Shown: positions 5,244-29,524 of the stretch, one piece after another
How positions within the stretch are numbered: position 1 is the first letter of the stretch
Layout: every line of letters starts with the position of its first letter
IMG/VR virus record: IMGVR_UViG_3300020442_000240
Span: 1 to 30,333 of that record
DNA length: 30,333 nucleotides
Direction: 5' to 3' (one strand)
DNA from: a virus
Notes under the pieces: generated by a model
Databases searched by the model: none
Told to the model about the DNA's origin: nothing
The model's input: only the letters and a program-made list of their open reading frames with translations
Made by a program: the position numbers and the translations under genes

Positions 5244-5980
5244 TCTATCTCCATTGCATAAATCATTGAGTAACCATTGGTATTAATACCTAAACCATCA
5301 TAACTGTTTTCGTTAAAGTTAACGACATACTGAACACTAGAAGTATCTCCTCTACCCATTGCAGCATTAAAGGTATGGTTACCAGCAGATAATCCTGTCC
5401 ATCTAGCTACATATGTGTGGTTAACTTGTGATTGTGACTGATGATAAGGGTCATGATGAGTTGCTTGAAACAAAGATGTATTGTTACCAGCGTCACACCA
5501 CATAGCAAATGTATGAGGGTTACCACTTGTTGCTCTAGCACAATAGTGGAAGTATACCACCATAGTAGTAGAAGCAGATTGCTTATTAAATGTTCCTGAT
5601 ATGTTTCCAGCAGATGGATATTTAAACTCTTGAAACAAAGTTATTTGTGTACCGCCACTATTTACTGTACTTGTACTGTGATATATAACTTCTGATTTTA
5701 CTATAGGTGTAGATATACCAGTTAATGATGATCCATCAAGTGCTGGTAATGCACCTGTTAAATTAGGTGCCGATAAACTTGTTAATGCTGATCCATTTAA
5801 TGCTGGTAAGTTACCAGTCAATGCAGATGATGGTACAGTACCTGATGTAGTCATATTACCACTAGCATCAAAAGATACTTTAGTTACACCGTTTGATTGT
5901 AGATCGATAACACCACTGCTATCTGATTCTAATTTTAATCCGCCAGAACCCGTAGTACTAGCATTAATTTTACATGTCAT
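5240..5980 (-). CDS. Tail fibre protein, proximal cassette
   Basis: A fibre protein of 246 residues from the ATG at 5980. I prefer that ATG over the GTG at 5992 because an AGAGGTGG site lies eight bases upstream and the ATG overlaps the preceding TGA as ATGA. Residues 1-45 form a shaft with a DASGN element (VTKVSFDASGNMTTSGTVP). Two tandem linkers follow (SALTGNLPALNGSALTSLS, then APNLTGALPALDGSSLTGIS). The C-terminal 150 residues look like a beta-sandwich tip (VKSEVIYHSTSTVNSG ... TMVVYFHYCARATSGNPHTFAMW ... MIYAMEIE). It comes directly after the T7-gp17-like fibre, so it may attach to or extend it. Confidence 0.75.
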   Translation of the reverse strand: MTCKINASTTGSGGLKLESDSSGVIDLQSNGVTKVSFDASGNMTTSGTVPSSALTGNLPALNGSALTSLSAPNLTGALPALDGSSLTGISTPIVKSEVIYHSTSTVNSGGTQITLFQEFKYPSAGNISGTFNKQSASTTMVVYFHYCARATSGNPHTFAMWCDAGNNTSLFQATHHDPYHQSQSQVNHTYVARWTGLSAGNHTFNAAMGRGDTSSVQYVVNFNENSYDGLGINTNGYSMIYAMEIE

Positions 5981-18341: not shown

Positions 18342-19226
18342 TTATTCTGCGCATTTAATTTCAAGTACTTTTTCTTCTTCCATACGGACAGCGCCGAATG
18401 AAGCAGAGCAATATACTTGTGTTGAATTACGTTTATCACGTCTTGGACCGATGTCTACATTTACATCCGCACCTACTGCAAGCAATAGACCAGATTTAGA
18501 GTAGCAAATAACTCTTCTGTAAGAGTTTGCATCTGTCGCAACGAGCTCAGTTCTAATGAACTCAAAGCCCATGAACGAGTTAACGTCCCCTTGTACCAAA
18601 GCTTTAACAGAGTTAAAGTCAGCGCTTGTTACTTCAGTTGATTGTAGCAAATCATTAATTTGTTTTGCTGTTACAATGATGTAACGAGGATCACCTGGAT
18701 CTGTTTCGTTTTGGTCTAATATTTGTTTAGCTCTTCTTAGTTTACCAATTGTAAGACCAGAGTTAGCTGCTGAACCACTTTCAACATAGTTGACCGGGAT
18801 TACCTGGCCTGCTGGATGTGTTACAGAGCTAGAACCAGTTTTACCTGTGTAAACTGTTCCAAAAGCTGATTCGATAATAATCTCATCCATTTTTCTACCT
18901 AAAGCAAAACCTGCGTTTTGACTGTATGGAGAAGTAGGATCGATTAATAATCTAATACGATCGGTTCTATCAATTAATTCAGCCCAATCAAAGTCACGTA
19001 GTGAGACACGTCTTCTATCGTGTGGTACTGTGATGAGCGGAGTATCTTGATGACGACCTGTCACCTCTAATGCAGAAGTAGCACCTATTCTATCGTAAAA
19101 TTCGTACTCAGCGTTCTGAGATTCGACTCTTACGTATGGACGTAGGCGAGAACCTTTTTGTTGCAAGAGATGCTCAACGTTTGCTTTGTACTGTTGCACA
19201 AAAGCTGTCGTTATTTGAGTTGACAT
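18342..19226 (-). CDS. Major capsid protein
   Basis: A 294-residue capsid protein starting MSTQITTAFVQQYKANVEHLLQQKGSRLRPYV. The ATG at 19226 is chosen because a consensus AGGAGG site precedes it; the open frame continues to 19301 through non-coding-looking sequence. The motifs ALEVTGRHQDTPLI, RRRVSLRDFDWAELIDRTDRIRLLIDPTSPYSQNAG and ALGRKMDEIIIESAFG match the phage capsid family found in many marine podoviruses, which differs in sequence from T7 gp10 but has the same HK97-type fold (family knowledge). C-terminus FGAVRMEEEKVLEIKCAE is typical. It follows the scaffold gene, separated by a 134-base structured gap. Confidence 0.93.
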   Translation of the reverse strand: MSTQITTAFVQQYKANVEHLLQQKGSRLRPYVRVESQNAEYEFYDRIGATSALEVTGRHQDTPLITVPHDRRRVSLRDFDWAELIDRTDRIRLLIDPTSPYSQNAGFALGRKMDEIIIESAFGTVYTGKTGSSSVTHPAGQVIPVNYVESGSAANSGLTIGKLRRAKQILDQNETDPGDPRYIIVTAKQINDLLQSTEVTSADFNSVKALVQGDVNSFMGFEFIRTELVATDANSYRRVICYSKSGLLLAVGADVNVDIGPRRDKRNSTQVYCSASFGAVRMEEEKVLEIKCAE

Positions 19227-19360
19227 AAATGTCCTCCTGTTATAGTTAAACTTCTCGCAAAGGCTACCCTTCCGGACCTCCACTACCCTAAGCCTGGGCA
19301 CACAGCTACGGACTCAGTGAGCTACCCGTAATTCGGATTATATACTTTATTTATTTATAG
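19227..19360 (-). promoter_or_regulatory. GC-rich structured leader of capsid gene, possible late promoter
   Basis: A 134-base gap between scaffold and capsid genes. About 19250-19340 is clearly richer in GC than its surroundings. In the minus-strand RNA it can form TACGG/CCGTA (19330-19326 with 19311-19307), enclosing CTC/GAG, and AAGG-GUAG-CCUU (19271-19260). The hexamer GGGTAG occurs three times (plus-strand CTACCC at 19264, 19283 and 19322). The upstream end reads GTATATAATCC...ACGGG, loosely like the promoter repeats at 24.9 kb. No tRNA or riboswitch that I know fits. Confidence 0.5.
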
Positions 19361-20206
19361 TTACACTGCCTCGTTAGGTTCAGGATAAGCATAATCATAT
19401 AAATATTGCATCTTTTTAATAGCTTCAGCATGACCTTGTGATTCTTTATCAGTATATTGATTCATAAAGTTAGGGTCACGTTGTAGCCTAGCGATCTCTT
19501 GTTGAGCAGCTTGTGGTGTTAGTTCGAATGATCTGACTTCACCAGGTTCAGCACCTGCTTCAGACATCATCTTACCTACCTTAGCAAATAGCTTAACAAA
19601 CATAGGATTATCACCTTGTCCTGTTTCATCAAACCATTTTAATAGCTCATCACCACCTAATTCCTTAGCAGCACGTTGTGATAAGTCTACAGACTCATCA
19701 TAAGCTTTACCAAGATCTTTTTTAAGTTGTGTTGACCACTCAGATCTCATTTGATCGTTATTACCCATAGCTTCTTTATATTCATTACCTAGAAACTGTA
19801 AGTATCCTGAATATAGTTTATTAGCTTGAGCATTAGTTAAACCAGTTTCATGCATGAGTTGTTTCATTGCAGTATCCATAGATTCAGAATGTTCAAAACC
19901 TTCTGGTACATCAACTTTATCAAACTCATATTGTTCTGGACGTCCTAAACGATTATAAAATTCGTTCATTTCATCTGGCGATGCATCAGCTCCTGGTAAT
20001 ACTATTTTATCAGCACCCACCATTTTCTGTGCATTGACATATGACTTAGCAAGTCCATTTATATCTTTTATATCCGCTAGACTTGGGTCGCCCTGTAATT
20101 CTTGATCTATTCCAGATCTCCAATCAGCTGAGCTACCCGCTGCTTCTGCAACTGTTTCAGTTGCTTCTGCGTTAACTTCTGCGGACCCTGTTGATTCTTC
20201 AACCAT
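19361..20206 (-). CDS. Capsid assembly scaffold protein
   Basis: A 281-residue acidic, helical protein immediately before the major capsid gene, the usual place of the scaffold. Features: Glu/Ala-rich N-terminus (EESTGSAEVNAEATETVAEAAG), the conserved scaffold motif SLADIKDINGLAKSYVNAQKMVGADKIVLPG, then LPGADASPDEMNEFYNRLGRPEQYEF, and a helical C-terminus. The start at 20206 (third codon of the longest frame) has AGGAG seven bases upstream; the ATG at 20212 is too close to it. The gene overlaps the preceding 84-residue gene by eight bases. Confidence 0.88.
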   Translation of the reverse strand: MVEESTGSAEVNAEATETVAEAAGSSADWRSGIDQELQGDPSLADIKDINGLAKSYVNAQKMVGADKIVLPGADASPDEMNEFYNRLGRPEQYEFDKVDVPEGFEHSESMDTAMKQLMHETGLTNAQANKLYSGYLQFLGNEYKEAMGNNDQMRSEWSTQLKKDLGKAYDESVDLSQRAAKELGGDELLKWFDETGQGDNPMFVKLFAKVGKMMSEAGAEPGEVRSFELTPQAAQQEIARLQRDPNFMNQYTDKESQGHAEAIKKMQYLYDYAYPEPNEAV

Positions 20207-20453
20207 TGTCATTCTCCTGCATTAGTTGCATTATTTCTCTAGGGTCTCTATCACAAAACCTTAGAATTGATAGTATAAGTCTACGTTGACCTTCACGGTG
20301 TGCAGACTCGTAAGGATCGCCTTGTACATAAGTTGAATCATGTATAAAGGCTATTTTACATAGATGTTCTAGTACGCGTTCTCCATCTTTAGTAGAAAAT
20401 ACAGCTCTATAAGCATCATGTAATTCGTTAAGTTTCGGTTGTTTCTGTGCCAC
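20199..20453 (-). CDS. Bbp19-like small phage protein
   Basis: An 84-residue protein with the pattern LHDAYRAVFSTKDGERVLEHLCKIAFIHDSTY then DPYESAHREGQRRLILSILRFC, which matches the Bbp19-like family of short phage proteins found between portal and capsid genes. Function is unproven; head morphogenesis is likely. GTG at 20453, seven bases after AGGA, is preferred to TTG at 20456. It overlaps the portal gene's 3' end by 26 bases. Confidence 0.75.
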   Translation of the reverse strand: MAQKQPKLNELHDAYRAVFSTKDGERVLEHLCKIAFIHDSTYVQGDPYESAHREGQRRLILSILRFCDRDPREIMQLMQENDNG

Positions 20454-28526: not shown

Positions 28527-28698
28527 TACATACGTAACTAAAGATGAGTTTCACAGATTCATTCGTGTACAACGCGAAGGTTCTGTAAATATGATCTCAC
28601 CAGAAGTACAGATGCTAGCGTGTCTAGATAAAAATACACACATGCACATACTAAATAATTATGAACAATTAGAGGAGGAATATGGCCAACCCAAATAG
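28504..28698 (+). CDS. Small conserved phage protein
   Basis: A 64-residue protein, MNDKLNASTYVTKDEFHRFIRVQREGSVNMISPEVQMLACLDKNTHMHILNNYEQLEEEYG. The pattern F-x-V-Q-R-x-G-x-x-N-M followed by I-x-x-NY is shared by short phage proteins of unknown role. AAAGGAG precedes the ATG. It overlaps both neighbours. Confidence 0.75.
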   Translation: MNDKLNASTYVTKDEFHRFIRVQREGSVNMISPEVQMLACLDKNTHMHILNNYEQLEEEYGQPK

Positions 28699-29524
28699 AA
28701 AGATCGACAAGACGCATCTATCTATTGATAACGCTGAGCAACGTGGTTTCTTACACAGAGACTACATTGCTCACTGTTTGAGATGGACGCATGTCGCTAA
28801 ATTTTTAAACGATCGCAAACGTTATGCAACAGCACGTATCTTAGATATAGGTTGTGGTAAAGAGATACCAATGGCAAAGCTTATGCACTCAAGCAGAATG
28901 CAGCCACACGTATACTACGCTTGCGATGTCAATAAACTAACAATGCCAAAGCAATTTGAAAATGCTAAGTGGAAACCTACTCTTGCAGGTAGTACAGACG
29001 TCTGTGATCTGACACCTGATAATTTTGAAGAAGGAGTCCCTAACATTATCTCTTGCTTTGAAGTATTAGAACATGTAGCACCTGAACACGCAAGACGTAT
29101 GCTCGGTAAGATATACGAGCTACTTGAAGACGAAGGTACTGCATTTATTAGTACACCTTGCTGGGACCCTGATGTGGGAGCTGCGGCTAATCATATCAAT
29201 GAAATGACTTATGAAGCATTAGGCGGCATGATTGAAGATGTCGGCTTTGCTATCGAAGGTCATTGGGGTACGTTTGCAAGCATTAAAGACTATAAAGATG
29301 AGCTTGGTGAACATGCTGAAACATTTGAGCAACTACGTAACTACTATGATACTAATTATCTAGCTACTATATTTGCTCCTCTATTTCCGCATAGATCTCG
29401 CAACTGTATCTGGCAGCTTAAGAAGCTAAGGTCTAATGAGACATGGAGCAGACTGTTTCCATCACTTAAAGACGTAGATACTCGTTGGTCAAGCTCTGAA
29501 GATTGGAGGCAATTACAACCATGA
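28682..29524 (+). CDS. Class I SAM-dependent methyltransferase
   Basis: A 280-residue methyltransferase. Motif I is ILDIGCG (53-59), the acidic residue that binds SAM ribose is D82 (YACDVN), motif around ISCFEVLEHV (123-132), then STP at 157-159. No TM segment. The central FEVLEH is typical of methyltransferases acting on small molecules, lipids or nucleic acids; substrate not predictable. A GAGGAGG ribosome-binding site lies before ATG. Coupled to the MazG-like gene by ATGA. Confidence 0.9.
   Translation: MANPNRKIDKTHLSIDNAEQRGFLHRDYIAHCLRWTHVAKFLNDRKRYATARILDIGCGKEIPMAKLMHSSRMQPHVYYACDVNKLTMPKQFENAKWKPTLAGSTDVCDLTPDNFEEGVPNIISCFEVLEHVAPEHARRMLGKIYELLEDEGTAFISTPCWDPDVGAAANHINEMTYEALGGMIEDVGFAIEGHWGTFASIKDYKDELGEHAETFEQLRNYYDTNYLATIFAPLFPHRSRNCIWQLKKLRSNETWSRLFPSLKDVDTRWSSSEDWRQLQP

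Follow-up and report, generated by a model that had tools for sequence, protein, structure and literature searches.

We identified a conserved, structured RNA element of ~75 nt directly upstream of the major capsid protein gene (MCP) in a 30,333-nt stretch of viral DNA (the window; IMG/VR record IMGVR_UViG_3300020442_000240). The element is a structured phage mRNA leader without an Rfam family or a description in the open-access literature, and is probably recognised by a protein. The phage is an HTVC010P-related pelagiphage that carries its late genes on the minus strand and whose MCP is 54% identical to that of HTVC010P. A first-pass annotation had singled out the 134 bases between the scaffold/protease-like gene and MCP as a GC-rich structured gap with three GGGTAG copies. 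The gap and all three copies are present (Table 1), and the GC richness holds for the core at 19254-19330 (60% GC vs ~28-45% in flanking windows), the gap as a whole being only moderately GC-rich. A coding role was rejected: 74/74 close loci have an in-frame stop in the 108 nt upstream, which makes the leader region non-coding.

Table 1. Features in and around the capsid leader (window coordinates)
Feature	Position	Strand	Remarks
Major capsid protein gene (MCP)	18342..19226	minus	PF19821, phrog_3437; gene that the element would serve
Gap, 134 nt	19227-19360	minus	between scaffold/protease-like gene and MCP start at 19226
Shine-Dalgarno AGGAGG for MCP	19233..19238	minus	by sequence; kept in close relatives
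Whole RNA element, model R1	19254..19330	minus	sole match in window, 74.4 bits, E 4.8e-20
Hairpin P3, type R, mirror of P1	19257..19283	minus	conserved as far as Vibrio and Alteromonas phages
H-type pseudoknot	19284..19307	minus	S1 covariation; S2 variants
Hairpin P1, type F	19308..19329	minus	compensatory changes at outer and inner pairs
GGGTAG copies (n = 3)	19327-19322, 19288-19283, 19269-19264	minus	
-10 element TATAAT	19337..19342	minus	aligned, conserved in close relatives
-35-like hexamer TGTAAC	19360..19365	minus	overlaps end of upstream gene; 17-nt spacer to TATAAT
Scaffold/protease-like gene	19361..20212	minus	upstream neighbour of gap

Read 5' to 3', the element has hairpin P1 first, then an H-type pseudoknot and, third, hairpin P3; a strong Shine-Dalgarno sequence and MCP come next. 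P1 has the outer pairs ACGGG/UCCGU, a wobble pair G19325.U19312, a UAG bulge (19322-19324) and the inner pairs CUC/GAG. In the pseudoknot, stem S1 pairs AGCU (19304-19307) with GGCU (19291-19294) and stem S2 pairs (UG)CCC (19296-19300) with GGG(UA) (19284-19288). P3 consists of the outer pairs GUGGAGG/CCUUUGC, a wobble pair U19276.G19267, a UAG bulge (19264-19266) and the inner pairs CC/GG closed by the GNRA loop GGAA. On the minus strand, the layout shared by the close set reads promoter, ACGGG UAG C..G UCCGU, a middle segment and GG U CC GNRA GG G YAG CC, and continues with GCGA, an A/U-rich spacer, the Shine-Dalgarno sequence and ATG. Two of the GGGTAG copies make the 3-nt bulges of P1 and P3 and the third is paired in the pseudoknot; the GUAG letters, earlier read as lying in loops, are not hairpin loops in the conserved structure.

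The gap is a conserved structured RNA and not a chance fold. Folding of the single sequence was uninformative (MFE -29.5, z = 0.51; 141/200 shuffles fold at least as well), and it is the comparison of sequences that proves the structure of the leader. Across 32 distinct close relatives 90% of cells are standard pairs, and the covariance check with homologous gaps proposed in the first-pass annotation was positive, with a covariation score of 0.247 vs 0.113 in shuffled alignments (0/500 shuffles as high) that collapsed once pairing partners were slid by one column. Compensatory changes support P1, P3 and pseudoknot S1. S1 is paired in 123/128 cells (0/1000 shuffles as high) and takes the forms AGUC/GACU, AGCU/GGCU, ACC/GGU and UGGC/GCCA. 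S2 occurs as CCC/GGG, UGCC/GGCA and CCCC/GGGG and is less clear in the L050-L061 subgroup. An independent alignment of the HTVC010P group gave 11 pairs changed on both sides vs 2.9 after shuffling. The leaders of this group (L083 and relatives; alignment A3 columns 71-83) carry a hairpin AGUCU-AAA-AGACU in place of the pseudoknot, likewise supported by compensatory changes, with a compensated variant in L235. The pseudoknot is naturally absent from L043 (2647-2709) and L044 (3994-4057), which have a short linker instead and keep both bulge hairpins; the hairpins are therefore the core of the element.

P1 and P3 share one internal module, present once in each orientation with the loop at opposite ends. 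It consists of an R.Y pair that is not Watson-Crick (G.U or A.C) and, next to it on the R strand, a 3-nt N-A-R bulge that occurs as UAG, CAA, UAA or GAA. All 32/32 distinct close relatives have G.U as the R.Y pair and the HTVC010P group has A.C; G.U and A.C pairs are isosteric. Watson-Crick replacement of the P1 wobble was found in neither alignment (close relatives; HTVC010P group), the P3 wobble is replaced by G-C in one of the 19 rows of the HTVC010P group, and the more distant loci L078 and L080 apparently have A-U at the wobble site, as judged by eye. Wobble types switch jointly in both hairpins (A.C/A.C, n = 56; G.U/G.U, n = 45; mixed, n = 3), which partly reflects shared ancestry. The middle bulge position is A in 200/200 cases, a position at which the module scanner demands A (as it demands R at position 3) and at which the alignments agree. 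The two modules are arranged forward-reverse (n = 106), reverse-reverse (n = 15, e.g. Baldr) or forward-forward (n = 11, e.g. ZP6), and because orientation varies, the module and not the hairpin is the conserved unit. Such a compact duplicated module, with G.U/A.C exchange and either orientation allowed, is well suited to structural work.

A blastn search of phage records with the gap itself returned nothing real, so that relatives were reachable only by structure-aware or MCP-anchored searches. MCP homologues were taken from viral contigs and phage records, and their upstream regions were searched with a scored module scanner and shuffled controls, an earlier unscored version having been far too permissive, mostly in GC-rich Vibrio/Alteromonas genomes. 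Among 179 non-identical upstream regions, which are related sequences and whose counts are not independent events, 135 (75%) contain the tandem module at a score of at least 30 vs 40/1790 shuffles (2%), and 115 (64%) at a score of at least 36 vs 9/1790 shuffles (0.5%). A DNA pattern blind to MCP matched 57 viral stretches, of which 49 were newly fetched and 48 of these long enough downstream; MCP follows in 48/48, in some loci with only 30-43% identity. A second pattern recovers the two Vibrio phage records. Applied to bacterial genomes, the same DNA pattern yielded ten GC-rich chance matches in coding sequence and no MCP. Linkage to MCP is strict in the phages that carry the element, which come from the ocean, freshwater and Vibrio hosts and also include Alteromonas phages. 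MCP does not universally need it, since inspection by eye shows none in some distant phages whose MCP homologues are recognisable (Yersinia YeP5, Acinetobacter TPWB-05, Alcaligenes Piluca and Vibrio D453).

The element is single-copy by model search, with one match in the window and one in each of 13/13 long contigs, apart from a weak extra match (E 0.25) in one contig. The MCP leader is the top tandem module genome-wide in HTVC010P, ZP6, phiVC8 and the window; in K300 it scores 35, below a chance match of 37. A single copy in a fixed place would suit a signal at the DNA level (an origin, packaging or recombination site) that is palindromic by coincidence, but this is very unlikely, as the compensatory changes include G.U and A.C wobbles and conservation is on a single strand, oriented as MCP is transcribed, and directly after the promoter.

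The late promoter suggested by the first-pass annotation has support at the level of sequence. The -35/17 nt/TATAAT arrangement is conserved, the -35 hexamer being TTTACA, TGTACG or TTTACG in relatives at identical spacing to TATAAT, and this sigma70-type promoter sits 5-9 nt 5' of P1 in most close relatives. A -10-like match of at least 5/6 lies upstream of P1 in 93/119 sequences vs 36% of base-shuffled stretches, a statistic of modest weight by itself, given the A/T richness of the region. In the Vibrio/Alteromonas relatives the promoter at the same place matches the consensus at 12/12 (ZP6), 11/12 (K300) and 11/12 (phiVC8) positions, with an extended -10 TG in all three. Promoter spacing places the expected transcription start at or very near the 5' base of P1, at ~19331-19329 in the window. 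In K300 (L157:5772-5797), phiVC8 (L158:6598-6621) and ZP6 (L156:6775-6790), a terminator-like hairpin lies directly 3' of MCP, and near-consensus promoter, leader, MCP and predicted terminator read as a one-gene capsid cassette. Pelagiphages have no comparable gap after MCP. The -10 of the capsid promoter in phiVC8 is flanked by an inverted repeat, GTTCTCTCTATG ... CATAGGGAGAAC (L158 ~5460-5511, immediately 5' of the capsid leader), which is annotated as a terminator and could be an operator or a 5' hairpin.

A leader that begins within a few nucleotides of the predicted transcription start, on an mRNA whose other end is closed by a terminator hairpin in three phages, could be a passive stabiliser, a compact 5'-terminal RNA that guards the capsid mRNA from 5'-end-dependent decay without any specific ligand. 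Such a stabiliser would not need a wobble pair that is always non-Watson-Crick, an A in the middle of the bulge in every case (a letter that the scanner itself requires) or concerted changes in two hairpins, and we regard it as unlikely.

The closest known layout is that of HK022 put, in which two stem-loops stand at the 5' end of a sigma70 transcript and the RNA contacts the beta' zinc-binding domain of RNA polymerase (PMC9378689). Both HK022 putL and the present element are ~70-80 nt long, 5'-terminal behind a sigma70 promoter and built from two bulged hairpins with wobble pairs. By this equal layout, the nascent leader might bind host RNA polymerase and carry it past pauses and terminators of the late operon; the T7-type RNA polymerase domain (PF00940) also had no match in 17 related records, in a search that gave no positive-control signal, and the absence of a phage polymerase is reported for Skadi as well (PMC10504331). 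The element nevertheless differs from put in its two mirrored NAR-bulge modules and, usually, its pseudoknot. Membership in the put family was rejected: model R1, run on the part of HK022 containing putL, gave no hit at E values up to 10, and put base pairing as seen by cryo-EM, compared by hand, differs from the NAR-bulge module. Moreover, put serves early operons and no particular gene, whereas the present element is tied to MCP only, and antitermination would defeat the predicted intrinsic terminator directly after MCP in K300, phiVC8 and ZP6. An antiterminator of the put kind is accordingly improbable.

No Rfam 15 family was found at the gathering threshold in the window or in ten related loci, and at E <= 10 the gap gave a single chance snoRNA match, located in the upstream gene. 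The element is likewise not described in the open-access literature. Mu-gpT-DE is a structured RNA before a phage head gene and resembles the element in this respect; it and other phage-associated Rfam motifs differ in that no Rfam family matches the window or the ten related loci. The first-pass annotation had further considered a self-processing RNA, and a small conserved RNA with a pseudoknot ahead of a highly expressed gene could in principle be a self-cleaving ribozyme or an RNase III processing site. This we consider scarcely credible: no Rfam ribozyme matches the window, the gap or the ten related loci; the invariant letters lie in paired bulge modules and not in a catalytic core, the two identical modules being present in variable orientation; L043/L044 lack the pseudoknot; and the helices, at 7-10 pairs, are too short for RNase III.

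Two further kinds of system offer partial parallels. The T7 phi10-gene 10 leader-Tphi unit likewise gives a capsid gene its own promoter, a structured leader and a strong ribosome-binding site, followed in the Vibrio/Alteromonas relatives, too, by a terminator right after the capsid gene; the present promoters differ in being sigma70-like, where phi10 is read by a phage polymerase, and the leader in being a conserved covarying RNA with a duplicated module. The MS2/Qbeta/PP7 coat hairpins and the T4 gene 32 leader pseudoknot are also small bulged hairpins or a pseudoknot in the leader of a phage gene or beside the gene, and they serve protein autoregulation, which is also the model proposed here, with a partner that is a candidate only. 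They differ in the gene concerned, here the HK97-type MCP of a dsDNA phage, and in the two copies of one internal module.

We favour, with reservations, the reading that the gap supplies a late, capsid-specific mRNA with its promoter and its 5' untranslated leader, in which the module pair is recognised by a protein and sets MCP output. Transcription would be driven by the sigma70-type promoter where the scaffold gene ends, with the first few bases already part of P1 to judge from promoter spacing, and the transcript would fold into P1, pseudoknot and P3 ahead of the strong ribosome-binding site and MCP. P1 and P3 would thereby present two copies of one three-dimensional module, the wobble pair next to the 3-nt NAR bulge, probably to a dimer or to two copies of a protein, which when bound would set the stability and/or translation of the capsid mRNA. 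A specific recognition partner is suggested because the non-Watson-Crick pair is kept and the modules are duplicated and evolve in concert, with indifference to loop sequence and orientation; action on MCP, in cis, is suggested by exclusive linkage and position. As candidate partner we would put first a conserved phage structural protein, most of all MCP itself acting in feedback, and second a conserved host RNA-binding factor. We infer that MCP or an assembly partner comes first because the element tracks the capsid gene across alpha- and gammaproteobacterial hosts.

Translational control, as raised in the first-pass annotation, is plausible, given a 5' UTR that is folded, conserved and found with the capsid gene only; sequestration of the Shine-Dalgarno sequence did not hold up. 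An alternative fold that would sequester it (GUCC..CUGU with ACAGGAGGAC) was seen in the window sequence and rejected because it is not conserved in relatives. Since occlusion of the ribosome-binding site was not seen in conserved form among relatives, the geometry of a classical translational repressor is not visible. The narrower proposal, in which the HK97-type MCP (or its assembly partner) would bind the leader as an operator via the two mirrored NAR-bulge modules, is tentative, a possibility that we would not call probable. If true, dsDNA phages, including very abundant marine ones, would have capsid feedback control like that by RNA-phage coat proteins. A conserved RNA tied to a single gene, that of the capsid, also bears on the control of capsid output in phages for which no polymerase of their own was detected.

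The element would explain small spurious gene calls and misplaced promoter predictions at this place in published genomes. 'Hypothetical proteins' of ~30 codons are annotated over or beside the leader (L157:4658-4750, L082:1424-1516, L090:1386-1475) and are probably spurious, and for the OVC8 phage a promoter was predicted with its -35 inside the P3 hairpin (PMC4802629). Elsewhere in the window, a predicted fatty acid desaturase (PF00487) at 1044-1823 is a possible auxiliary metabolic gene, and a block of oppositely oriented genes encodes a DUF932 protein (PF06067; 27278-28258) and a methyltransferase-like protein (28682-29524).
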